Shown here in pieces: positions 2,789 to 34,804 of a DNA stretch of 35,062 nt. The position numbers and the translations under genes are program-made. The stretch is from an uncultured Actinomycetes bacterium (GTDB taxonomy: Bacteria; Actinomycetota; Actinomycetes; Nanopelagicales; Nanopelagicaceae). The stretch spans positions 1 through 35,062 of the forward strand of contig CAIUHB010000046.1 in the NCBI GenBank assembly GCA_903898855.1, written 5' to 3'. Position 1 is the first letter of the stretch, and every line of letters begins with the position of its first letter. The notes beneath the pieces are model-generated. The model saw only the letters and a list, made by a program, of their open reading frames with translations. It searched no databases and had not been told where the DNA came from.

Positions 2789-4300
2789 TTATTCCTCGGG
2801 CTTAACCAGTGGGAAGAGAATCGTCTCGCGGATACCAAGACCAGTTAGCGCCATTAACAAGCGATCAACGCCCATGCCCATTCCGCCCATCGGTGGCATG
2901 GCATATTCCATGGCGCGCAAGAAATCTTCATCGAGTTGCATCGCTTCTAGGTCGCCCTTGGCGGCCAGAAGTGATTGCTCGGTCAAGCGTTCACGCTGAA
3001 TTACTGGATCGATAAGTTCGGAGTATCCGGTTGCAAGTTCAAAGCCTTCAACATAGAGATCCCATTTCTCCACGATGCCCGGGATGGTGCGGTGTTCGCG
3101 GACAAGTGGTGAGGTATCCACTGGATATCCCTTAACAAAGATAGGGCCGCTGAGTTGATCGGCTGAAGTATGTTCAAAGATTTCTTCAGCGAGCTTGCCA
3201 GTAATCCACTTCGGATCGACTTTCATGCCGAGCTTGATTGCCATGGCTTTTAGTTCGTCGTAGGAAGTTTGGGGAGTGACTTCAACGCCAACGCCCTCGG
3301 AAATTAAGTCGTACAAGTTTGCTTCGCGCCACTGACCACCGAGATCGAGTTGGCGACCATCGTGATGAGTTACGACATGGCTTCCGGCAACAGCCGTCGC
3401 CGCGTTTTGAACCAATGTGCGGGTGAGTTCGGCAATTGAATTCCAATCGCCATACGCTTCGTAGCTCTCAATCATCGCAAACTCTGGTGAGTGGCTGGAG
3501 TCAGCGCCTTCATTACGGAAGTTGCGGTTAATTTCAAAGACCCGCTCTAGCCCGCCGACAACGCAACGCTTGAGAAATAGTTCTGGAGCGATGCGAAGGA
3601 ATAGCTCCATGTCATAGGCGTTACTTAAAGTCTTAAATGGGCGTGCTGTCGCACCACCATGCATGACCTGCAACATTGGGGTTTCGACCTCAATGAAATC
3701 TCGGCCGTTAAAAGTTTCGCGAAGTGAACGCATTACCGCTGGACGAAGACGAGCAGTAGTACGCGCCTCGGGGCGAACGATGAGATCGACATATCTCATG
3801 CGAACGCGAGTCTCTTCCGAGAGCGGCTTGTGCTCGACTGGAAGTGGGCGAAGTGACTTCGCAGCGATTGCATATGAATTAGCAAGAATAGAAAGTTCGC
3901 CGCGCTTGGAGGTAATTACTTCGCCGGTGACGCTGACTAGGTCGCCTAAATCAATCTCGCTCTTCCAGGAATCGAGCGCTTCTTGGCCAACCTTGTCGAG
4001 TGAGAGCATTGCTTGAAGTTCGGTGCCATCGCCTTCGCGAAGTGTGGCGAAACAGAGTTTGCCAGTATCGCGTTTAAAAATAACTCGACCAGCAACGCTT
4101 TCGATGATGCCAGTAGCAGTGTCAGTTTCCAGGCCTGCATGCGCTTCGCGAATCGCTTTTAGCGATGCAGTGCGAGGAACTGCAACTGGGTATGGCTCTT
4201 GGCCTTTGGCGATAATTGCAGCGCGCTTTTCGCGGCGAATCCGAAGTTGTTCGGGTAGATCATCTTCGGCCGGTAGCTGTGCTGAATTATTCTCGCTCAT
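2789..4300 (-). CDS. lysS: Lysyl-tRNA synthetase, class II
   Basis: Charges tRNA-Lys with lysine in the cytoplasm. The 503 residues match the family's length. An N-terminal OB-fold anticodon-binding domain (about 55-160, with [17 protein letters not shown]) is followed by the class II catalytic core: motif 1 around [16 protein letters not shown], motif 2 with [18 protein letters not shown] and motif 3 [15 protein letters not shown] near the C-terminus. The sequence follows the actinobacterial housekeeping LysS type (like Rv3598c) rather than the LysRS domain fused in LysX. The ATG at 4300 has no convincing ribosome site; the gap to coaX is 20 bases. Its product also supplies Lys-tRNA, the expected substrate of the LysX/MprF-like protein encoded at 23619-25292. 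Confidence 0.96.
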
Positions 4301-22509: not shown

Positions 22510-23619
22510 ATGTATAAAAAAGTAATTGCAGTTGCACTTGCTCTACTAACACTCACCACAGTTACTGCCTCCGCTTTAACTCCACTTTCGGGTATGCCAC
22601 CGGTGCTTGATCAAAATGATATTTACGCCGCAGACCGCCCCAATCAACTCAGCGATGTTGTTAAAAATATGCCAGAGCGGGTATACGTTCCAAACCATGG
22701 TGGGGCTAGCGTCAGTGTGATTGACCCAAAAACTTTTAAAGTAATCAAGACCTTTAAAACTCCCAAGGGTCCACAACATGTGGTTCCATCATGGGATCTA
22801 AAGACGCTCTGGGTAAATGACAATGAAGGTAATTACCTCACTCCAATTGACCCGCTTACAGTTACTGCGGGCAAATCGGTTTATGTCCACGATCCTTACA
22901 ATCTCTATTTCACGCCCAATGGCCAATATGCAGTTGTGATGTCTGAGGCCGATAAGAAGATTGTTTTTCGCGATCCCCACACCATGGCAATTAAGAAGGT
23001 ACTCAACGTCCCATGCCAAGGCGTAAACCATGCGGATTGGACCAAGGATGGAAACTTCTTCCTAGTCTCATGCGAATTCTCGGCCATGGTTCTCTGGGTT
23101 GATACGACCAAGATGGAGGTTGTAAAGACTGCCAAGATTCCGATGACTGGAAAGTCGATGGCGATGCCACAAGATGTGAAAATTTCACCAGATGGCAGCA
23201 CTTTCTATATCGCCGACATGATTTCAAATGGCGTATGGGCGATGCCAGCCGATAACTTCGGAAAGTTCACTCTGATCAAGACTGGTAAAGAAGCCCATGG
23301 CATTTATGTCACTCGCGACTCCAAGACTGCGCTGATTACCAATCGCGGTGAGGGTAGTGTTTCAGTTCTGCGCTTTAGCGATAATAAAGTTATTGCGAAG
23401 TGGAAAATTCCTGGTGGTGGCAGTCCTGATATGGGCGGAATCTCGGCCGATGGCACGCAGTTCTGGGTATCTGGTCGATATAACGACGTCGTCTACGTAT
23501 TCGACATTACTCACGGAAAATTCTTAACTAAAATTAAAGTCGGCCGCGAACCACATGGTTTAGCTATCTACCCACAACCTGGTCGCTACTCACTCGGACA
23601 TACAGGAGTATTTAGATAA
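22510..23619 (+). CDS. Secreted YVTN-type beta-propeller protein
   Basis: Exported protein of 369 residues. An N-terminal signal peptide (YKKVIAVALALLTLTTVTA, cleavage near residue 22) precedes repeated beta-propeller blades such as VYVPNHGGASVSVIDPKTFK, ISPDGSTFYIADMISNGVWA and LITNRGEGSVSVLRFSDNKV, which follow the YVTN/Lactonase-like pattern of a surface strand, S-V-x-V-I-D and a turn. No catalytic residues are recognisable, so it may be a binding or scaffolding protein. The ATG directly abuts the deacetylase stop and its stop overlaps the next ATG (TAATG), so the three genes are translationally coupled. Confidence 0.8.
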   Translation: MYKKVIAVALALLTLTTVTASALTPLSGMPPVLDQNDIYAADRPNQLSDVVKNMPERVYVPNHGGASVSVIDPKTFKVIKTFKTPKGPQHVVPSWDLKTLWVNDNEGNYLTPIDPLTVTAGKSVYVHDPYNLYFTPNGQYAVVMSEADKKIVFRDPHTMAIKKVLNVPCQGVNHADWTKDGNFFLVSCEFSAMVLWVDTTKMEVVKTAKIPMTGKSMAMPQDVKISPDGSTFYIADMISNGVWAMPADNFGKFTLIKTGKEAHGIYVTRDSKTALITNRGEGSVSVLRFSDNKVIAKWKIPGGGSPDMGGISADGTQFWVSGRYNDVVYVFDITHGKFLTKIKVGREPHGLAIYPQPGRYSLGHTGVFR

Positions 23620-25292
23620 TGAATTTACGGAAATATATTCCGGCGCTCATTGGACGAGCTGCTTACATCGTTGGCCTAATCGATATTCTCGCCAACGTTC
23701 TACATCCCTTTAAAGCTTCAGCAAAGAAGATTCAGTCCTACCTCCCGATCTTCACACACTCCACCGCCTTTGCAACGGCGGTATTTACTGGCGTTGTACT
23801 CATCATTCTTGCGCGCGGACTTATTCGCCGAAAGAAGCGAGCTTGGGCAATTGCAATTGTGATTCTGCTAATTAACTTAGCCACTGACCTTTTCCGCAAT
23901 CACACTCACACTCTACAAATTTCAGTTGTTGGGGCGCTCTTAATATCGCTCGTTATCTTTCGCAAAGAGTTCTACGCGGTCTCTGATCCCACCACAAAGC
24001 TCCAACCAATCCGCGCCTTTATATTTAGCGTTATTGGCGTCATCGTTATCGGCCTCTTTCTGGTCTACTTCCGCCATGACCACCAAGTAACTGGCAACCC
24101 ATCTTTTGCCATCATTTTGCTGGCGATTGTGAAGGGAATGATCGGCGTTACCGGAACTCTGCACTTTAAAGGTGAAGGTGTCGGGGATACCTTCGATACA
24201 ACAATGCTCTCACTCGGAGTGCTCACACTTATTATTCCGCTCTGGCTCTTCTTCCGCCGCGTTAAGCCAATTCCTAAAATGACCCAGGAGGAGTTAGAGC
24301 TAGTGAAGAAATTAATTAAGCATGATCAAGAACAAGATTCGCTTGGCTATTTTGCAACTCGTCGCGATAAGAGTGTGGTCTGGTCCAATAATAAGAAGGC
24401 CGGAATCGCCTATCGAGTTGAAGGTGGCGTAATGCTTGCCAGTGGAGATCCATTTGGTGAATTCAGCCTCTGGCCCGAAGCGATAAATAATTTTCTAGAA
24501 GTAGCGCGTGAACATGCTTGGACTCCTGCAGTTATGGGAGCTGGAGATCGCGGTGGCGAAGTTTGGGTCGAAAAGGCTGGAATGCAGGCGCTGGAAATTG
24601 GCGATGAAGCAATTATCAACGTCGCAGATTTCACGCTGGAAGGCCGGCCAATGGCAAATGTTCGCCAGATGGTTAATCGCATTAAGCGAAAGGGCTACTC
24701 CTGTTACACAACTAAATTTGTCGCACTTCCCATTGCCGACCAGCGCGAACTAGTTCGGCTGGCGAAGGAGTGGCGCTATGGAGTTCCAGAGCGTGGTTTC
24801 TCAATGGGGCTAGATCGCTTCGGCGAAGCTTTTGATGATGAGTGCATCATCACGATTGCCGAATTAGATGGCGTAAAAACTGGTTTTCTCCACTTTGTTC
24901 CATGGGATGAAAGTTCGATCTCACTCGATCGCATGCAACGCGAACGAGGTAGCGATCCCGGAGTTACTGAATTGATGATTGTTGCCACAACCGAATGGGC
25001 ACAGCAAAATAATATTAAATATATTTCGCTGAACTTTGCCGCCTTTAGATCGCTCTTTGAACGCGCAGATAAAATTAGCGCTGGATTTGTTACCCGCTCG
25101 CTGCGAAACATCATTCGCTTCTTCTCTAACTGGTTTCCAGTTGAGTCGCTCTACCGCTTCAACGCTAAGTTCCAGCCGGAATGGCGCACGCGCTATGTGC
25201 TCTACCCCAGCGCTAAGGACCTGCCTAAAGTTGGTATGGCGGCGATTCGTGCGGAGAAATTCATTCAGAGCTTCCGCTCGCACTCTGCCTAG
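23619..25292 (+). CDS. Stand-alone LysX N-terminal-type phosphatidylglycerol lysyltransferase
   Basis: Predicted membrane enzyme that transfers lysine from Lys-tRNA to phosphatidylglycerol, making the envelope less negative. The 557 residues begin with seven predicted membrane segments (about 7-29, 48-69, 75-92, 98-115, 132-151, 163-182, 193-212), followed by a cytoplasmic DUF2156/MprF catalytic domain with DSLGYFATRRDKSVVW (240-255), VMLASGDPFGE, ERGFSMGLDRFG, LHFVPWD and ISLNFAAFRSLFE. These blocks closely match the N-terminal half of mycobacterial LysX from memory. The lysyl-tRNA synthetase domain fused in LysX is absent. It is the third gene of the envelope operon. Confidence 0.82.
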   Translation: MNLRKYIPALIGRAAYIVGLIDILANVLHPFKASAKKIQSYLPIFTHSTAFATAVFTGVVLIILARGLIRRKKRAWAIAIVILLINLATDLFRNHTHTLQISVVGALLISLVIFRKEFYAVSDPTTKLQPIRAFIFSVIGVIVIGLFLVYFRHDHQVTGNPSFAIILLAIVKGMIGVTGTLHFKGEGVGDTFDTTMLSLGVLTLIIPLWLFFRRVKPIPKMTQEELELVKKLIKHDQEQDSLGYFATRRDKSVVWSNNKKAGIAYRVEGGVMLASGDPFGEFSLWPEAINNFLEVAREHAWTPAVMGAGDRGGEVWVEKAGMQALEIGDEAIINVADFTLEGRPMANVRQMVNRIKRKGYSCYTTKFVALPIADQRELVRLAKEWRYGVPERGFSMGLDRFGEAFDDECIITIAELDGVKTGFLHFVPWDESSISLDRMQRERGSDPGVTELMIVATTEWAQQNNIKYISLNFAAFRSLFERADKISAGFVTRSLRNIIRFFSNWFPVESLYRFNAKFQPEWRTRYVLYPSAKDLPKVGMAAIRAEKFIQSFRSHSA

Positions 25293-26756: not shown

Positions 26757-26990
26757 TTATTCTTCTAATTGACGGCGTGGATCATCCACGTCGTCATACT
26801 CTTCTTGCGGCTGCGATAGCTTCCAATACATGTAATAGATAAATACACCAAAGAAGGGCCACTCAAAAACATATAACCAACTGCGATGGTTGCCGGAGAG
26901 TGCGCGATCTAGTTCAAGAAATCCCATAACAATGCAGAGTGGAATTCCAAGTAAGAGCCACTTTCGTTTTGGATCTGGCTCGTTAATCAT
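26757..26990 (-). CDS. Small membrane protein coupled to ctaG
   Basis: Protein of 77 residues with two predicted membrane segments (about 11-24 and 40-57), a charged N-terminus (NEPDPKRKW) and an acidic C-terminal tail (EEYDDVDD). The aromatic hairpin FEWPFFGVFIYYMYWKL is typical of small actinobacterial membrane proteins of unknown function. It overlaps ctaG by 8 bases and is translated from the same message, which suggests a role in oxidase assembly or stability, but this is inference. Confidence 0.65.
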   Translation of the reverse strand: MINEPDPKRKWLLLGIPLCIVMGFLELDRALSGNHRSWLYVFEWPFFGVFIYYMYWKLSQPQEEYDDVDDPRRQLEE

Positions 26991-27768
26991 TATCTAACCT
27001 CTCGGAAAGTTCGCGTTCATTATTAAACCAATCGCGGGCTGCCAACACAATCCAGATTGAATCAATCAGCATTCCCATCGCCCACATAATTGCGCCACCG
27101 CGGTGTTGGTCGCTCATGCCGGACATATTCGATTGATTGCTTGGAATATCATGCAGCAACTTATTTCCGGAGTAGAGAAAGAAACCAGTCATCGTCTCTG
27201 GCAACATCATCGCAAAGAGTGATCCAACTCGAAATGAGTAAGGCACAAAGTATGGGTTGGGATTGCCTTCAAGTACAGGTATGTAATAAACAGTGCCGGC
27301 GAAGAGGAAGAGAATTAATTCCAGGCAATGAATATTGGGACTGGTCATGCCCGCATTTGCTAGTGGAGAGAAGTGCGTCAAAATTAAAGTGGCGAGAAAG
27401 AGTGCGAATCCAACCTGCGGGCGAAAGAGCTGGCGAATTAAAAAATTTCGAGAGAGCGCACGGATTGGCGAGCGCAGCCGGGGAAACCTGGAGTTAAGTG
27501 CCAATTTGATCGGCGAACCCAAGACGATCAGGGGGGAGATCAGCATCATCAGTCCGACATGTTGAATCATGTGGACCCAGAATGCATGGATGGCGATATG
27601 CGGGATTGGCCCAACCAGCAGAACAATTGCCAGGACCATTCCTAAGGTGAAGAGGAATTGGCGGGCATTACTGATTCCTACCCGCGCTGGGCGCTCAGCG
27701 AAGTACCAGATGAGCTTTCCGAGTAGGGCGGCGGCGAAGGCGATATCCCAGATTGGGCTAAGTCCCAT
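26983..27768 (-). CDS. ctaG: CtaG-type cytochrome c oxidase assembly protein
   Basis: Membrane protein of the CtaG_caa3 family, implicated in building the copper centre of haem-copper oxidases. The 261 residues have about seven predicted membrane segments and the family's histidine-rich features: AFWVHMIQHVGLMMLISPL (about 62-80), THFSPLANAG, LELILFLFAGTVYYIPVLEG and ETMTGFFLYSG. A C-terminal SNQSNMSGMSDQHRGGA loop is rich in methionine and histidine and could bind copper. AAAGGA precedes the ATG at 27768. It is divergent from the oxidase operon, sharing its 129-base intergenic region. Confidence 0.88.
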   Translation of the reverse strand: MGLSPIWDIAFAAALLGKLIWYFAERPARVGISNARQFLFTLGMVLAIVLLVGPIPHIAIHAFWVHMIQHVGLMMLISPLIVLGSPIKLALNSRFPRLRSPIRALSRNFLIRQLFRPQVGFALFLATLILTHFSPLANAGMTSPNIHCLELILFLFAGTVYYIPVLEGNPNPYFVPYSFRVGSLFAMMLPETMTGFFLYSGNKLLHDIPSNQSNMSGMSDQHRGGAIMWAMGMLIDSIWIVLAARDWFNNERELSERLDND

Positions 27769-27847: not shown

Positions 27848-27897
27848 AGCTACCGTAGTTACCTGTTTCACAAACTAGCCGGATGAAAGGTTACACA

Positions 27898-28635
27898 ATG
27901 TCGGGAACATCTACCACGATGACCGCTGGAAAGAGGACGGCCAGCGCAATTGTTGGCGTACTCCTCAGCGTTGCAATCGTTGGCGCCGTTGGGTTCACGC
28001 TGCATAGCGCAAGCGCTGATCCACAGAAGAAATTGTATGCAACTAAAGATTCAGCGACGATCACTGTTGATGGCAAGAGCTATCCAAAAGCAGCGGTCAC
28101 GCTCGGGGTATATCCGGATAAAGCGACAGCCAATGCGCATGGCAGTTTTGCTAATAAGAAGGATTGGGTTCAATACGGACCTTCTACACATATCGTCCTT
28201 CCAGCGCATACATATGTAACCATGACAATTCACGTCTATGACTCAGGTGAAAATCTCAACAATCCATACTTCGGCAAAGTTGTCGGCACTGTAGGTGGCA
28301 CCATGAATGTTGATGGTCAGGATGTTTCATCTATTCCTGCCGATCAAGTTCAGCACACTTTTACCCTTCACGGATTGCCAACAACTTCACAAGATCCGCT
28401 CTACGTCAACGTTCCGCTCCTACGCGTAGCAACCGATGACAAAGATAACTTCCTTCCAACAACTGACCCAGGTACAAAGAACCAGGGCCACACAGTTACC
28501 TTCTCCTTTATCACCGGCGGTAAGGGCGAGTATGTGTGGAACTGCGAGTATCCATGCGGTGATGGCACCTACCAGAAGTTCGGCGCAGTAATGGGCGCTT
28601 ACGGCTATATGTCAGGAAAGGTGAGCGTCGCATGA
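27898..28635 (+). CDS. Membrane-anchored cupredoxin-like protein with CuA-style cysteine pair
   Basis: Predicted extracytoplasmic protein of 245 residues, first gene of the oxidase operon. One N-terminal membrane segment (about 18-38, SAIVGVLLSVAIVGAVGFTL) anchors a beta-rich domain whose C-terminal end, VWNCEYPCGDG, resembles the copper loop of oxidase subunit II: C216 and C220 have the CuA spacing. The histidine and methionine that complete CuA are not at the expected places, so it may bind a single copper, form a disulfide or be a degenerate paralogue. The start ATG at 27898 has GAAAGG 7 bases upstream; the in-frame ATG at 27883 has none. It overlaps subunit II by 4 bases. Confidence 0.72.
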   Translation: MSGTSTTMTAGKRTASAIVGVLLSVAIVGAVGFTLHSASADPQKKLYATKDSATITVDGKSYPKAAVTLGVYPDKATANAHGSFANKKDWVQYGPSTHIVLPAHTYVTMTIHVYDSGENLNNPYFGKVVGTVGGTMNVDGQDVSSIPADQVQHTFTLHGLPTTSQDPLYVNVPLLRVATDDKDNFLPTTDPGTKNQGHTVTFSFITGGKGEYVWNCEYPCGDGTYQKFGAVMGAYGYMSGKVSVA

Positions 28636-29423
28636 GTAATCACGAAGACGAGGTAATGCCTCCCACACCGGGAGAGCGCCTTACCCATTTCTTCGGTCGT
28701 AAAGATGTGCGTATCGCAACTCTCTACACCGTTCTCGTTGGAGCTTTAACAGTAATAATCGGCGGCTTCTTCTATACCAAGTGGATGCCAAATGCCATGA
28801 GTACAGATATGAAATCCATTGAGCGCTTGATGGTGATCTTTACTTGGATCTCTGCTCCAGTCTGTGGCGTCGTTGTAGCAATCACGCTTTACACGCTGCA
28901 GAATCGTCATAAAGGCGACACCCCACCTGAAGATGGACCTGCGATTCGTACTCGCGGACCCATCGTCATTGTTTGGTCAATAGTTTCCAGCTTGCTCTGC
29001 CTTGTTGCAGTTGTTTACGGATTAATTGAACTCAACTCAGCGGACGGAAAAGCGCAAGCAAATGCGCCACACGCGCTAATCGTTGAAGTCACCGGAAACC
29101 AATGGGTCTGGAACTTCCACTATCCAGCACAAGATGTCACCACAGATAAGTTGATGCTTCCCATCAACCAACCAGTTGAATTTCGAATTACATCAGTCGA
29201 TGTCAACCACTCATTCTGGCCAGTACAACTTGGCGTAAAGGCTGATGCCAACCGCGTTCAAGTGACATTGGCAGATACCACTCCAAACAAACTTGGAAAT
29301 ATCGATGTGAAATGTGCCGAACTTTGCGGCCTCTATCACGCTTATATGGAGACCACTGGCGCCGTCATGACAAGAGCTGACTTCAATAACTGGGTCACTG
29401 CACAAGGAGGTCACACAGCATGA
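28632..29423 (+). CDS. ctaC: Cytochrome c oxidase subunit II with complete CuA site
   Basis: Receives electrons at the binuclear CuA centre and passes them to subunit I. The 263 residues contain three predicted membrane segments (about 29-52, 66-85 and 114-134), one more than the usual two, and then the cupredoxin domain. The CuA ligands are all present: H193 in VDVNHSFWP, then C228, E230, C232, H236 and M239 in CAELCGLYHAYM. The aromatic NQWVWNFHYP region that carries electrons in is intact. No fused cytochrome c domain is present, so an external donor is needed. The gene overlaps its neighbours by 4 bases on each side. Confidence 0.93.
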   Translation: MSNHEDEVMPPTPGERLTHFFGRKDVRIATLYTVLVGALTVIIGGFFYTKWMPNAMSTDMKSIERLMVIFTWISAPVCGVVVAITLYTLQNRHKGDTPPEDGPAIRTRGPIVIVWSIVSSLLCLVAVVYGLIELNSADGKAQANAPHALIVEVTGNQWVWNFHYPAQDVTTDKLMLPINQPVEFRITSVDVNHSFWPVQLGVKADANRVQVTLADTTPNKLGNIDVKCAELCGLYHAYMETTGAVMTRADFNNWVTAQGGHTA

Positions 29424-31282
29424 CAACTCTCGATCACCAAGCAACTACCCGACCAATTCCAAATCCAAAGCGGAGCTTGATCACCAAGCTCAACATGGGT
29501 ACTGGAGTAATTGTTGGAGTTATCTTCGCTCTTGCTACTTACTACTTAATCAACCCACACGTTGATCATTCAATAGCTCAGGAATACAACCGCCAACTTC
29601 TCGCAACCATGTTTATGTGGAGCCTTGGCTTCATGATTGGAATTGGCGCCTTCATTGGACCATTCCGCTGGTTGATTGGTAAAGATCTCACCGATGAAGA
29701 GCAGCTCTACCTTGCCGGCGACGGCCAAGGTATCAAGCGCTACTTCAAATATTGCACCGACCACAAAGTGGTAGGAATTCAATATCTCGTCGGTGTAATT
29801 ACTCTGCTTGGCGTAGGTGGAACTCTCGCCATGATGATTCGTACCAACTTGATTCAACCCGGTTCCAAGTTCATCAACCCAGTTATCTATAACTCATTGG
29901 TTGGACTTCACGGAATCACCATGATTATCGCGATGATTATCGTTGCCACCGGACCTTTCGGTAACTACATCATGCCAATCATGATTGGTGCTGCCGATAT
30001 GGCATTCCCTCGCTTAAACGCACTCTCTTGGTGGGTTCTCTTCACCGCGATTCCAGTGCTCTGCAGCGCTTGGTTCTTGGGTGGAATTCCTACCGGCTGG
30101 ACTGCATACGCACCGCTTAGCGTCCAAGCTGGACCAGGTATGAATGCATTTATCGCGACCATCATTATCTTCGCTGTTTCAACCGCGGTTGCTGGTGCCA
30201 ACATCACCGCAACAGTTGTTGCGATGCGCGCAAAGGGCATGAGCTGGAACCGCGTTCCGATCTTCGTAGTCGGCGCAACCATCTCGGTCGCACTTGCTAT
30301 CCCAGCTTTCCCAACCTTCATGGTCTCGATGATCATGACCGGTTTGGATCGCACCTTTGCGACTACCTTCTTCGATGCCAACTTCGGTGGCAGCGGTTGG
30401 TTGTACGCACACCTCTTCTGGATTATGGGACACCCTGAGGTCTACGTAATCTTGATTCCTGGCGTTGCTGCGCTGATGGAAATCGCACCGGTATTCGTCC
30501 GCAAGCCTCTCTTCTCCTACAACGCCGCAATCATGGGCTTTGCTGGAATTGCCGGCCTTTCCGTACTTGTTTGGGCCCACCACATGTACATGTCTGGCTG
30601 GATGCCAATGCTTAATGGACCGTTCATGGTGACGACCGAGATGATCTCGGTACCAACCGGACTTATCTTCTTGGTAATCCTCGGCACGCTCTGGCGAGGC
30701 AGGCCATGGATGAAGCTTCCGATGCTCGGTGTCTATGCATTCCTCTGGAACATGCTCGTCGGTGGAATCACTGGTCTCTATCTCTCAGATGTACCAGCAG
30801 ATAACTATCTCCACGGCTCCATGTACGTAACCGCGCACTTCCACTACACCTTGATGGGTGCAGCACTAACTGGCGCACTTGCCGGCCTTGCCTTCTGGTT
30901 CCCAAAGATGACAGGTCGCATGCTCAATGAGCGCGCTGGCTACATCTCCTTCTGGTTAGTACAGGTTGGATTCCAGGTTCTCTTCCTCGGCATGTTCATC
31001 GCTGGTGCAGAAGGTCAACCACGTCGTGTCTCTGACTATGCACATCAGTTCGCAACCTCTAACTTGATTAGCACCATCGGTGCTTACTCAATTGGAATTG
31101 GAATGATTGTCCTCCTCTGGGCAGTCGTTCACTCATGGCGCTTTGGAAAGATTGCGCCAATGAATCCATGGGGCTCTAAGACACTTGAGTGGACTGTTCC
31201 TTATCCAGTCCCACTAGTGAACTTTGATACTCCACCAGTTGTTACGAGTGATCCTTATGGCTATGGAAAGGCAGAAAAGTAA
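29420..31282 (+). CDS. ctaD: Haem-copper oxidase subunit I, variant lacking the K-channel lysine
   Basis: Catalytic subunit of a terminal oxidase, 620 residues. Conserved ligands are in place: H164 (LHGITM) and H475 for the low-spin haem, H338 (GHPEVY) with H387 and H388 (WAHHMY) for CuB, H473 for the high-spin haem, plus E340 and the cross-linking tyrosine Y342. The K-channel position is changed: SVPTGLIFL has I416 where the family has lysine (PTGVKF or PTGIKV). In the D-channel, D193 and N200 are present but the second asparagine of the usual RLNN is A201. Residues 1-115 precede the normal TDHK start and add two predicted membrane segments. It overlaps ctaC by 4 bases and ctaE by 1. Confidence 0.92.
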   Translation: MTTLDHQATTRPIPNPKRSLITKLNMGTGVIVGVIFALATYYLINPHVDHSIAQEYNRQLLATMFMWSLGFMIGIGAFIGPFRWLIGKDLTDEEQLYLAGDGQGIKRYFKYCTDHKVVGIQYLVGVITLLGVGGTLAMMIRTNLIQPGSKFINPVIYNSLVGLHGITMIIAMIIVATGPFGNYIMPIMIGAADMAFPRLNALSWWVLFTAIPVLCSAWFLGGIPTGWTAYAPLSVQAGPGMNAFIATIIIFAVSTAVAGANITATVVAMRAKGMSWNRVPIFVVGATISVALAIPAFPTFMVSMIMTGLDRTFATTFFDANFGGSGWLYAHLFWIMGHPEVYVILIPGVAALMEIAPVFVRKPLFSYNAAIMGFAGIAGLSVLVWAHHMYMSGWMPMLNGPFMVTTEMISVPTGLIFLVILGTLWRGRPWMKLPMLGVYAFLWNMLVGGITGLYLSDVPADNYLHGSMYVTAHFHYTLMGAALTGALAGLAFWFPKMTGRMLNERAGYISFWLVQVGFQVLFLGMFIAGAEGQPRRVSDYAHQFATSNLISTIGAYSIGIGMIVLLWAVVHSWRFGKIAPMNPWGSKTLEWTVPYPVPLVNFDTPPVVTSDPYGYGKAEK

Positions 31283-31890
31283 TGAGTTCAGATACTAAAT
31301 TCCATGTCCATCACGATTCACCAGAGAAGATAGGCCGTCGTGAGCGCTTAGGCGTTCGCCTGCTCATCGTTGCTGACGGCGCCTTTGTCTTCGGCATGAT
31401 CTTCTCGTACTTCTACCTTCGTAACCTCAATGCAAACAATGGTTGGATTCCAAAGGGTGGTCACCACCTTTCAGTCTCTTCCGGTTGGATTGTGGTGATT
31501 CCACTTCTCGTTGCTGCAATTGCACATAAACTCGGAACGCATAATCTGAAGGCTTTCAAGAATATCTCCATCATCACCTTGATCGCTTTGGTGGTTGGTT
31601 TGTATCTCCAATGGAAGCAATTGGCTCATATGCCATTCCGAGTTGATGGAGATTCCGGCAAGGTATTTGGCTTTGAAGGTTCCTACTCATCTTCTTGGGC
31701 GCTGATAGCTGGTGCAAATATGTTCCACTACATTCTCGGAACATTTATCTCACTTGGTTTAGTTATTCGCGCACGTCGCGCTGATGTAGATCCAATCCTT
31801 GAAAAGTGGCGCCTACGTACTGCAGGCTCTTGGTTTACTTGGATTGCAATTTCGGGAATTGCTTGCGCAATCACCACATCAATTATCTAA
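31282..31890 (+). CDS. ctaE: Cytochrome c oxidase subunit III-like protein
   Basis: Membrane subunit of the same oxidase, 202 residues with five predicted membrane segments (about 25-47, 67-85, 94-110, 135-160, 181-202), the usual size for short bacterial subunit III. The first helix reads LLIVADGAFVFGMIFSYFYL; in canonical subunit III this place carries the conserved S-E pair, so the glutamate is replaced by aspartate here. The HYILGTFISLGLVIRARR helix matches the family's fourth helix with its histidine. The ATG overlaps the ctaD stop by one base, and a strong terminator follows the gene. Confidence 0.85.
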   Translation: MSSDTKFHVHHDSPEKIGRRERLGVRLLIVADGAFVFGMIFSYFYLRNLNANNGWIPKGGHHLSVSSGWIVVIPLLVAAIAHKLGTHNLKAFKNISIITLIALVVGLYLQWKQLAHMPFRVDGDSGKVFGFEGSYSSSWALIAGANMFHYILGTFISLGLVIRARRADVDPILEKWRLRTAGSWFTWIAISGIACAITTSII

Positions 31891-32253: not shown

Positions 32254-33027
32254 TTAGTGTGAGTCTGCCATTCCTTCTGCAGCTGACTTCATACGTGCAA
32301 TACGGAAGATGGTGATACCGAATACGCACTTTGCAAGAACGTCTGCAATTGTGTAACCAATCTGGCGATCTGTGAAGAGGTACGCCATTTGATTCGCGCT
32401 TGGGTTCTTAACCAAGATTGGAATCAAGTATGAGATTGGGTAGACACCCCATGTTGCGATAAGCAACAAGCGAAGGCGACCGATTGATGCGGCTACGCCC
32501 TCTGGCTGACGATCAAGTGACTTGCCAAGCTCTACGAACAATACGTAAAGGATGTACAAGAATGGAATTGTTGAAAGAATACCGAATAGAACCTTGGTTC
32601 CATTGTGGCTTGAGATTTCGCCAGGATATCCGAGGATGATCATCGCAGCTGATGCTGGGACCAAGCGTGAGATAAGTGACTTTGAAGCTTCCTTAGCGAT
32701 AGCTAGAACTGCAATTACTTCTACGAGCAATAGCGGTACAGTCAAAATCCAGTCAACATAGCGATATGCCTCGTTAAATGCACCTTGCTGGGTTCCAATT
32801 GTTACAGCGTTCTTCATTGATGCATCGTTAAATGAGTTGAAGATGCGGAAGTAGTGATATCCAGCAATGAAGGTAACCATTGAAGACATGACTAGTGCGC
32901 TGCGGTACTTAGCTAGCACGCGGCTCTGTCCCACGAGTGTGAAGACGGTGCATGCGAGCATCGAGATCAGACCAAAGGAGAAGATGTTATATAACGAACT
33001 CCATTGTCCATTTGATAGTTGAAGCAT
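32254..33027 (-). CDS. actR: Actinorhodopsin, light-driven proton pump
   Basis: Seven-helix retinal protein of 257 residues that pumps protons outward in light. Helix C reads RYVDWILTVPLLLVEV: D92 (acceptor), T96 and E103 (donor), the DTE pattern of proteorhodopsin-like pumps; L100 at the tuning position predicts green absorption. H58 matches the histidine that pairs with the acceptor in proteorhodopsin. K233 in VLAKCVFG is the retinal Schiff-base lysine. Helix E has G149 in VLFGILSTIPFLYILYVL, placed like the fenestration glycine of antenna-binding rhodopsins by my alignment. AGGAGGA lies 8 bases before the ATG. blh is directly upstream. Confidence 0.96.
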   Translation of the reverse strand: MLQLSNGQWSSLYNIFSFGLISMLACTVFTLVGQSRVLAKYRSALVMSSMVTFIAGYHYFRIFNSFNDASMKNAVTIGTQQGAFNEAYRYVDWILTVPLLLVEVIAVLAIAKEASKSLISRLVPASAAMIILGYPGEISSHNGTKVLFGILSTIPFLYILYVLFVELGKSLDRQPEGVAASIGRLRLLLIATWGVYPISYLIPILVKNPSANQMAYLFTDRQIGYTIADVLAKCVFGITIFRIARMKSAAEGMADSH

Positions 33028-33050
33028 TCGGATATTCCTCCTGTAAATGG

Positions 33051-33086
33051 GTCGCTATATGGGCCCGAGATTGCTCGGATAGCGAC
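33051..33086 (-). promoter_or_regulatory. Stem-loop in the actinorhodopsin 5' leader
   Basis: In the actR leader an 8-base outer stem (GTCGCTAT with ATAGCGAC) encloses a 5-base inner stem (CCGAG with CTCGG) around a 4-base loop, with a 6-base bulge on one side. It ends 9 bases before the AGGAGGA ribosome site. A second AAAGGAG sits at its upstream edge with no start codon after it. It may stabilise the mRNA or control translation; no known riboswitch class is recognised. Confidence 0.55.
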
Positions 33087-33180
33087 TCCTTTATGCAAAG
33101 TGTTCGCTAAAACTGCGTATTTATCCAGCAATCGCTCAACAAAATCCCAATAATCTTTGGGTTTAGGCCTATTTCGGGCG

Positions 33181-34137
33181 CTATCTGAGCGCGTTTCGGT
33201 CAAAACGGGCGGTAGCCATCATGTGTGGGACGGTCAGCGCCCAGACCACGACCAAGCTCGCCCAGAGCATCCCCGAGCCAAATTGGCCTGGACGATTCAA
33301 CATTAAAATCAGGGCAACTAAGAGCGTTCCGGCAATTGCGTATAGGCCGGGCAGAACCGCCCGCGAAATAGCCAAACCAGTTTTGCCCTGCTCTGCCGCC
33401 ATAAGCGCCTTGGGAAGTTTGGGAACTAACCGAGCGGTGTGACGCAAGGCGTGCCAGAGCCCGAAATACACAGCAAAGGTGATGAGTGGTGGTGCCAGCA
33501 AAGAGAGCGCAGCGAGCAGGATCAAATCACTCGCGGATTGAATATTTCGAAGTATTAGTTGAACAAGTACGGCCAGTGCCGCCAAGGCAATTACTACATT
33601 GCGAATTAAGTGCGTATTGGATCCCGCCCAGTGCGCAATCGAAGGATGGATGCGTACAAGAGCTTTGAATGAGCGATGATCTGTAAGCGGCAGGAAGACA
33701 GGCAGGGATCCCGAGGCGAGCCCGTACAAATAACTAGAAGTGCGAGTAAATCTAGGTTGGTTTTGGAAATCACGCCATTCGTTTTTATAGGCAGCATCAC
33801 CAAAGCCAAAGTGGAGAGCGCTCATCACTAATACACATTGGAAACCGACGACGCTCCACTGTGCGATAGCCAAACCAGCCAAAATTGCAATCGCAACATA
33901 GACCAGAATGAAGGCGCCAAATTTCAATCTTGGCTTGCTCGGAATAGAAATTAAATGGTCGATTGCGCCATGTGGAATTCCGAGCGAGAGTGAGATGGTT
34001 GCAATAGTTATCTGTAAGGTTTGAGAAATCTCGACCTTTGTAAAGTGAAGTGCTAAGAACGCAACGGCTGTCACTAAGGCAGCTAATCTTGAGAGTCGGA
34101 AGGCGAGCTTGTAGATTTCAGAAAGTCCCGATTCCAT
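33181..34137 (-). CDS. blh: Brp/Blh-type beta-carotene 15,15'-dioxygenase
   Basis: Membrane iron enzyme that cleaves beta-carotene into two retinal molecules, supplying the chromophore of the downstream rhodopsin. The 318-residue protein has about eight predicted membrane segments and the conserved histidines of the family: H56 and H61 (GIPHGAIDH), H109 (SALHFGFGD), H229 and H233 (GLWHALRH) and H305 (TVPHMM). It lies 153 bases upstream of actR on the same strand and diverges from crtYc, whose product helps make its substrate. Confidence 0.94.
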   Translation of the reverse strand: MESGLSEIYKLAFRLSRLAALVTAVAFLALHFTKVEISQTLQITIATISLSLGIPHGAIDHLISIPSKPRLKFGAFILVYVAIAILAGLAIAQWSVVGFQCVLVMSALHFGFGDAAYKNEWRDFQNQPRFTRTSSYLYGLASGSLPVFLPLTDHRSFKALVRIHPSIAHWAGSNTHLIRNVVIALAALAVLVQLILRNIQSASDLILLAALSLLAPPLITFAVYFGLWHALRHTARLVPKLPKALMAAEQGKTGLAISRAVLPGLYAIAGTLLVALILMLNRPGQFGSGMLWASLVVVWALTVPHMMATARFDRNALR

Positions 34138-34149
34138 GCCCTCAGAGTA
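34138..34149 (-). promoter_or_regulatory. -10 box just before blh
   Basis: On the minus strand TACTCT (34149 to 34144) is followed by GAGGGC and then the blh ATG, the same 6-base spacing seen before other leaderless starts in this window. GAGG could alternatively serve as a ribosome site of a longer transcript. No good -35 is visible. Confidence 0.4.
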
Positions 34150-34184
34150 TGTGAAATATTAGGAATTTGGGAGATGATTGGCGA

Positions 34185-34505
34185 GTGCTTCACCTCAATT
34201 ATCTCTGGGTACTGATTTTTATTGCCCTATGTGCAATTGGGGTCAATCTCGGATTTAAACTGAAAATTTCACAGCACTGGCGCACTTTTTTTAAGGTTGA
34301 TCTCTGCATCCTGGTTATCTATCTCGCCTGGGATATCTGGGCCGTCCACAAAAAGAGTTGGAGCTTTGATTCAAAACAAATTTTAGGGTTGAAGATTCTG
34401 GGCGGCTTACCCATTGAAGAGATCCTCTTCTTTGTAGTTGTCCCGCTTATGGCGATTCTGAGTTATCGCGCACTTACTCAAATAGTGGCGAGGTTTCGAC
34501 GATGA
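34185..34505 (+). CDS. crtYc: Lycopene cyclase subunit CrtYc
   Basis: First half of the heterodimeric lycopene cyclase that closes the rings of lycopene to give beta-carotene. The 106 residues (from GTG at 34185) have three predicted membrane segments and the conserved GLPIEEILFFVVVP motif (about 80-93), whose acidic pair is typical of the CrtYc/CrtYd/CarRA cyclase family, with DLCILVIYLAWDIWAV earlier. An in-frame TTG at 34167 would add six hydrophilic residues; neither start has an ideal ribosome site. It overlaps crtYd by 4 bases and diverges from blh. Confidence 0.86.
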   Translation: MLHLNYLWVLIFIALCAIGVNLGFKLKISQHWRTFFKVDLCILVIYLAWDIWAVHKKSWSFDSKQILGLKILGGLPIEEILFFVVVPLMAILSYRALTQIVARFRR

Positions 34506-34804
34506 TCTATTCTGATATTGCGTTAGATGCGATCCTGGTCGCAGTCCTTCTCGATCTCTTTGTACTTCGTACTCAAATGCTCACTCGTGGGATTTATTGG
34601 CTCACCTACGCTCTGATTCTGCCCTTTCAACTACTCACAAATTGGTGGCTCACCTCAAAGGACATTGTGATTTATTCGCAAAGCGAGATTATTGGGCGTA
34701 GGTTGGCTGGCGCGCCGATTGAGGATTTACTCTTTGGATTCTCGTTGATCTTATTGACGCTATCGCTCTGGGAATTCTTTTTAAAGCAGAGTACTAAAGA
34801 TTAA
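34502..34804 (+). CDS. crtYd: Lycopene cyclase subunit CrtYd
   Basis: Second half of the heterodimeric lycopene cyclase. The 100 residues contain three predicted membrane segments, the YWLTYALILPFQLLTNWWLT stretch in the middle and the matching GAPIEDLLFGFSLILL motif (about 70-85). It overlaps crtYc by 4 bases (ATGA), giving translational coupling of the two subunits, and its 3' end overlaps the convergent permease gene by 11 bases. Confidence 0.87.
   Translation: MIYSDIALDAILVAVLLDLFVLRTQMLTRGIYWLTYALILPFQLLTNWWLTSKDIVIYSQSEIIGRRLAGAPIEDLLFGFSLILLTLSLWEFFLKQSTKD

Follow-up and report, generated by a model that had tools for sequence, protein, structure and literature searches.

A-family haem-copper oxidases with two extra N-terminal helices, and with variants of the K proton channel, are already in print. 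In the parts of the work of Degli Esposti et al. (2021; PMC8239418) on which we draw, the former appear as the "2TM" type of COX1 found in iron-oxidising bacteria; they are linked with caa3_CtaG, and membrane-bound cupredoxins figure in the accompanying scheme. The K-channel variants are gathered in Supplementary Figure 7 of the same paper, and one of its two hypotheses involves seven independent losses. A second point of reference is the B family (ba3), which the relevant sections of PMC3084760 describe as having an alternative K channel of Thr, Ser and Tyr and no D channel, and a third is the actinobacterial aa3 oxidase of the bcc:aa3 supercomplex (PDB 6adq, 7rh6 and 7qho). The locus that we analysed lies in a stretch of 35,062 nucleotides (the window) and encodes a subunit I protein, CoxA (29420..31282, plus strand), that resembles each of these systems in part. 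Like the 2TM proteins, CoxA has two extra helices predicted ahead of its core (residues 26-47 and 53-75), and a caa3_CtaG gene stands in its cluster. It shares the A-family fold, the metal ligands, the motif RLNA and about 38-40% identity with the aa3 subunit of the supercomplex, which differs in having the K-channel lysine and in lacking E407, S410 and the 111-residue N-terminal extension of CoxA. With the B family it has in common the absence of the lysine and a polar residue at T413, but CoxA carries I416 and M353 and has the residues of a D channel. A B-family identity is rejected by the fold and by I416 and M353, which do not fit the alternative K channel of that family.

The assignment of CoxA to the A family draws on several lines of evidence. 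The reading frame at 29420-31282 (plus strand) runs uninterrupted over 620 amino acids and matches PF00115 with 393.6 bits, and its closest sequence matches in the PDB come from actinobacterial aa3 enzymes. An AlphaFold model built with a 36-sequence alignment as input (pLDDT 86.7, pTM 0.90) had its best Foldseek matches in the A family, to which all 50 of the matches listed belong. The six histidine ligands (H164, H338, H387, H388, H473 and H475) and the helix-VI tyrosine, Y342, are invariant in alignment A1, whose 36 sequences include two relatives with the lysine, and the D-channel residues D193, N182, N200 and E340 are all present, so that the His ligands, the Tyr and the Asp, Asn and Glu of the D channel expected of an A-family oxygen reductase are in place. 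Of the Lys, Thr, Ser and Tyr that PMC3084760 gives for the K channel, only T413 and Y342 are kept, I416 and M353 replacing the lysine and the serine. CoxA is accordingly best described as A-family by sequence and predicted fold, and not by its K-channel feature. The sequence-only reading of this DNA had placed SVPTGLIFL at residues 410-418, and the alignment bears this out, with I416 (codon 30665..30667, plus strand) falling on the lysine of VPTGIK in the mycobacterial aa3 structures and on the same position in relatives. The alignment likewise upholds its statement that the haem and CuB ligands, E340 and Y342 are retained, and its view that the enzyme looks catalytically able is supported. 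The same reading had pointed to A201 in place of the second asparagine of the usual RLNN. The residue was correctly read, but the special meaning attached to it is rejected, since the aligned mycobacterial aa3 chains have the identical residue and also read RLNA.

Loss of the lysine extends well beyond the window. Among 121 proteins, consisting of CoxA itself (P0001) and the best 120 of its 7227 relatives, the lysine is absent from every one (66 have leucine at this position and 55 isoleucine) and the K-channel serine position, 353, is methionine throughout, while Y342, T413, E407, S410, D193 and N200 are kept in all 121 and E340 in 120. With 121 of 121 proteins lacking the lysine, chance or sequencing error as the cause of I416 is rejected. 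Misalignment is rejected as well, because the VPTG motif fixes the position and because a residue in another protein tracks the lysine independently. The latter belongs to subunit II, CoxB, encoded immediately upstream (28632..29423, plus strand; TIGR02866 at 125.8 bits, below the cut-off of 147.7, and PF00116 at 46.6 bits), in which alignments show that the CuA ligand motif is retained. A glutamate before the second helix of subunit II is what we take to be the entry of the K channel, and CoxB has V112 in its place. We counted this residue in 92 distinct subunit II sequences from the same actinomycetotal loci, leaving out fragments with short upstream sequence, and found the glutamate in 22 of 22 partners of a subunit I with the lysine (K-type), in none of 66 partners of the lysine-free type that has E407 (E-type), and in none of four partners of a type with glutamine at the lysine position (Q-type). 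Since the lysine, the serine at position 353 and the entry glutamate of subunit II have all been lost, the K channel is gone, and in actinomycetotal loci it has been dismantled as a unit, in both subunits.

What accompanies this loss in subunit I is a change at two other positions of helix VIII. We compared 65 different subunit I sequences, namely P0001, 14 from earlier loci and 50 from a genome search, the latter being the first 50 of 65 places listed in a search of 296 Actinomycetota genomes at E <= 1e-110. The lysine is present in 37 of them and absent from 28. All 28 lysine-free sequences have both E407 (codon 30638..30640, plus strand) and S410 (codon 30647..30649, plus strand), whereas E407 occurs in none of the 37 lysine sequences, which have F, M, I, L, A, V or Y there and, at position 410, alanine (33) or glycine (4). 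When residues 112-611 were scanned for positions separating the two groups, under thresholds of 85% for the one set and 15% for the other, just three positions stood out (407, 410 and 416), plus 433 with a less clear separation. A wider set added three long protein lists (the best 120 each), 30 further loci and six plasmid proteins; its 461 rows, after removal of 94 duplicates and one short row, left 366 that are non-redundant. Residue 416 is I, V, L, F or T (threonine once) in 314 of these, every one of which has E407 and S410; as the three long lists were seeded with E-type queries and hold the best 120 of thousands, they test the invariance of the pair and not the contrast between types. 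The 48 rows with K416 include none with E407 and one with S410 (L153), and E407 is likewise absent from the four rows with Q416. The contrast itself can be read from the locus-derived rows only, later canonical copies included: E407 is found in 31 of 31 rows with a hydrophobic residue or threonine at 416, in none of 70 with lysine and in none of four with glutamine. The pairing of E407 with S410 also recurs in proteins named Chloroflexota and Elusimicrobia, for which subunit I alone was seen. The sequence-only reading had proposed a rewired or reduced proton supply in one odd protein. The loss of the K channel stands, but the single odd case has given way to a conserved oxidase type. It had also held that a lysine or glutamate elsewhere in an equivalent channel would overturn its proposal, and the presence of E407 and S410 on helix VIII comes close to doing so. 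On the residue patterns, proton supply looks to have been re-routed in a conserved way rather than broken or merely reduced.

We looked for earlier descriptions of a helix-VIII glutamate replacing the lysine and found none in the parts of PMC3084760, PMC10640624, PMC12808453, PMC10715153 and PMC9145763 that were searched, nor in the searched portions of the open-licence K-channel literature, a result that is no proof of novelty. The word "glutamate" is absent from the main text of PMC8239418, and the variant may already be catalogued in Supplementary Figure 7 of that paper. The other lysine-free A-family oxidases that we encountered are those with glutamine, found on rhizobial plasmids (L137, L139 and L142) and in L159. 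They resemble the CoxA system in having lost both the lysine and the subunit II glutamate, but differ from CoxA in having glutamine at 416 and neither E407 nor S410. The three rhizobial proteins also have alanine at the place of T413 and asparagine at that of D193, and two of their loci (L137 and L142) adjoin genes for an FdhF/YdeP oxidoreductase and c-type cytochromes. Because the Q-type enzymes lost the lysine and the entry glutamate without gaining E407, an enzyme without the lysine need not have E407.

To follow the history of the exchange we built a tree of the 65 subunit I sequences with residues 402-418 removed and rooted it at the midpoint. At least two changes between the K and E types are required on this tree. 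Six E-type proteins (L113, L114, L116, L121, L125 and L133) form one group (support 100/100) inside the K-type A1 part, the branch uniting them with eight K-type rows has support of 97/94, and a single clade of all lysine-free rows is rejected (p-AU 0.00177). CoxA itself belongs to a group of 19 rows (100/97) in this midpoint-rooted tree, which does not contain the sequences of PMC8239418, a work whose 2TM class is characterised by branching basal to A1 and A2 in a rooted tree. As the root is not fixed, either type may be the older. Two lineages of relatives bear on whether E407 could be a mere side effect of relaxed selection. All 120 listed relatives of L093 have alanine in place of E340; the names that some of them carry include Chloroflexota, Anaerolineae, Dehalococcoidales, Elusimicrobia and Actinomycetota. 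In all 120 listed relatives of L097, whose names include Ferrimicrobium, Acidithrix ferrooxidans and other Acidimicrobiia, iron-oxidiser genera among them, D193 is replaced by R, K or Q and N200 by E. E407, S410, T413 and Y342 are nonetheless present in 120 of 120 proteins in each list. Such a side effect is unlikely on these sequences, because E407 stays where E340 or D193 and N200 have been lost.

The genes around CoxA form a conserved cluster. Upstream of CoxB lies Cup (27883..28635, plus strand), a cupredoxin-like protein by model and alignment with one predicted N-terminal membrane helix, and divergent from it a gene for a caa3_CtaG-type assembly factor (26983..27768, minus strand; PF09678 at 157 bits), a family whose proposed role would be CuB insertion. 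Downstream follows CoxC (31282..31890, plus strand), a short subunit III-like membrane protein by sequence and place only, for which profile searches gave no family match. The order CtaG (on the opposite strand), Cup, CoxB, CoxA, CoxC recurs as far as contigs reach and extends down to 56% identity (L053). Cup is present in every locus extending far enough upstream, a CoxC homologue follows CoxA in all loci whose contigs continue far enough, and wherever a locus extends to CtaG, this gene stands upstream in the opposite orientation, with three oddities: in L051 some 2.9 kb intervene, in L041 the gene is broken into two frames, and in L053 it is represented by a weak same-strand match. Searches with Cup returned no Pfam family and no significant match among PDB sequences. 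Its model (pLDDT 78, pTM 0.73) gave first Foldseek matches to rusticyanin (best, E 5.9e-5) and auracyanin, extending to E 7.9e-5, with low TM-scores of 0.30-0.54. All 18 aligned sequences share H158, C221-x3-C225, M237 and M243; Cup has the C-x3-C pair and two invariant methionines, but a single invariant histidine. By these residues its metal site, if any, would fit neither the standard blue copper type nor the standard CuA type. Directly downstream of the cluster (32254-34804) are a rhodopsin gene, a gene for a Brp/Blh beta-carotene dioxygenase and two half-genes of lycopene cyclase. We reject the rhodopsin as a component of the oxidase system, a match being found in only one of 63 related loci (L010), many of them short-flanked. 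Elsewhere in the window two genes (2789-4300 and 23619-25292) encode apart what the fused LysX protein combines, namely a lysyl-tRNA synthetase and a membrane protein of LysX/MprF-like type, and a beta-propeller protein at 22510-23619 weakly matches the lactonase-type nitrous-oxide reductase L-NosZ (76.6 bits against a cut-off of 700).

Among actinobacteria, the host is a relative of the freshwater acI/Nanopelagicales lineage. The locus nearest to CoxA (L001) is 96% identical, and related loci come from actinobacterial metagenome-assembled genomes, from two single-cell genomes and from strain IMCC26103, whose genome is complete and which PMC5301498 assigns to acI-A4; from isolate names and "freshwater metagenome" labels we infer a freshwater origin. 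A close relative of CoxA (60-91% identity) occurs in 39 of 101 genomes of the family of IMCC26103, in one case (G021) by a 163-residue match only. All but one of these 39 genomes (the exception is G071) also contain a second homologue, at 37-44% identity. All 23 canonical copies that were read, from same-family genomes (G083 and G095 included) and from the genome of L001 (G401), have K416, F407 and G410. In G401 some 1.8 kb separates the canonical copy from a cytochrome b domain on the same contig, and the two are also close together in G001 and G005. The second canonical ctaD that the sequence-only reading advised looking for has been found in the genomes of close relatives, and CoxA is a subunit of a second, accessory oxidase, encoded together with a cupredoxin-like protein and a CtaG of its own. 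Five of 12 genomes tested, IMCC26103 included, also have cytochrome bd; for this strain the consulted part of PMC5301498 reports a cytochrome c oxidase and bd and does not mention a second oxidase type. A different arrangement is seen in G308, a genome whose completeness is not established, where two PF00115 genes were found (L088 and L117), both of the E-type, and no bd match. The indications that the E-type works as an oxidase are indirect and come from G308 and from the E-type proteins of iron-oxidising genera. For Ferrimicrobium acidiphilum, PMC8350767 reports two a-type terminal oxidases and respiration via an aa3 enzyme (cytochrome 605) whose turnover number is 35 per second and which may or may not be of the E-type.

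Helix VIII carries both the lost and the gained residues. In ideal-helix geometry, with T406 set at 0 degrees, the angles are -20 degrees for T413, +40 for S410, +100 for E407 and -80 for position 416, all of them rough given P412. By this geometry E407 does not occupy the former place of the lysine, because it is 13.5 A from position 416 along the axis and on another flank, one residue from T406. We take T406 and T413 to face the binuclear centre, and that end of helix VIII to point to the outer face. With this orientation, the helix geometry would place E407 and S410 at about the height of CuB, flanking the active-site face on the side that is turned from the lost lysine. The reading that we prefer, with a probability of roughly 0.58, is that CoxA belongs to an accessory oxidase whose K channel has been dismantled and in which E407 and S410, together with T413 and Y342, most likely form a protonatable relay replacing it. 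Electrons would enter at the CuA site of CoxB, perhaps from Cup, and then pass by way of haem a to haem a3 and CuB. The D channel is intact in the window enzyme, and the relay of E407 and S410 with T413 and Y342 would supply or hold the proton that the K channel gives in textbook enzymes. Such a relay, with E407 presumably carrying protons, would do at the centre for Y342 and CuB what the K channel did. Against this reading speak the Q-type oxidases, which dispense with the lysine and have no E407, the distance of E407 from position 416 on the ideal helix, and the one lysine protein with S410 (L153).

A possible alternative, though one to which we give clearly less credence, is that all chemical and pumped protons travel via the D channel and that E407 and S410 represent a structural or electrostatic change enabling an active site without the lysine, for example by holding a CuB ligand, Y342 or a haem side chain. 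The intact D193, N182, N200 and E340 of the window protein fit this idea, as do the adjacency of E407 to T406, which we take to face CuB, and the existence of Q-type enzymes with neither the lysine nor E407. However, E407 is invariant even where D193 and N200 or E340 have been lost, so an intact D channel is not the general answer. We regard as unlikely a bolder version of the re-routing, in which protons would reach the binuclear centre from a new side, by a route marked by E407 and S410 on another flank of helix VIII and perhaps starting at the outer face, and the K and E routes have been exchanged at least twice. Proton delivery in NO reductases is from the outer face. If such a route were real, this oxidase type would conserve energy with a stoichiometry unlike that of textbook cytochrome oxidases.

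Two further explanations fare worse than the relay and its neighbours. A helix-VIII glutamate near the metal site is reminiscent of the NO reductases, and the enzyme might on that ground have turned from oxygen to NO reduction or another role. We consider this improbable, since Y342, all His ligands and the CuA motif are kept, the E-type includes proteins named Ferrimicrobium and Acidithrix, which are aerobic iron-oxidiser genera, and G308, its completeness not established, has two E-type PF00115 genes and no bd match; identity as an NO reductase is itself rejected by the A-family fold and by Y342, a cross-linking tyrosine that NO reductases lack, in all 121 proteins (P0001 and the best 120 of 7227). 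That CoxA is a decaying paralogue whose channel residue was lost by drift is very hard to credit and is rejected, for although in relatives it accompanies a canonical oxidase as an accessory copy, the operon is conserved across related loci and those same 121 proteins retain Y342, T413, E407, S410, D193 and N200 without exception, and E340 in all but one.

The need of A-family oxidases for two proton channels is a long-standing puzzle that has been studied mainly with crippled mutants of K-channel enzymes. To judge from its conservation, the protein described here represents an intact and widespread oxidase type in which loss of the lysine goes with a glutamate and a serine at other positions of helix VIII. 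In actinomycetotal loci, nature has removed the K channel in both subunits and has paired its removal with a fixed two-residue change in subunit I. Exchange of the three residues at 416, 407 and 410, together with the natural enzymes, may therefore offer a way to ask what the K channel is for.
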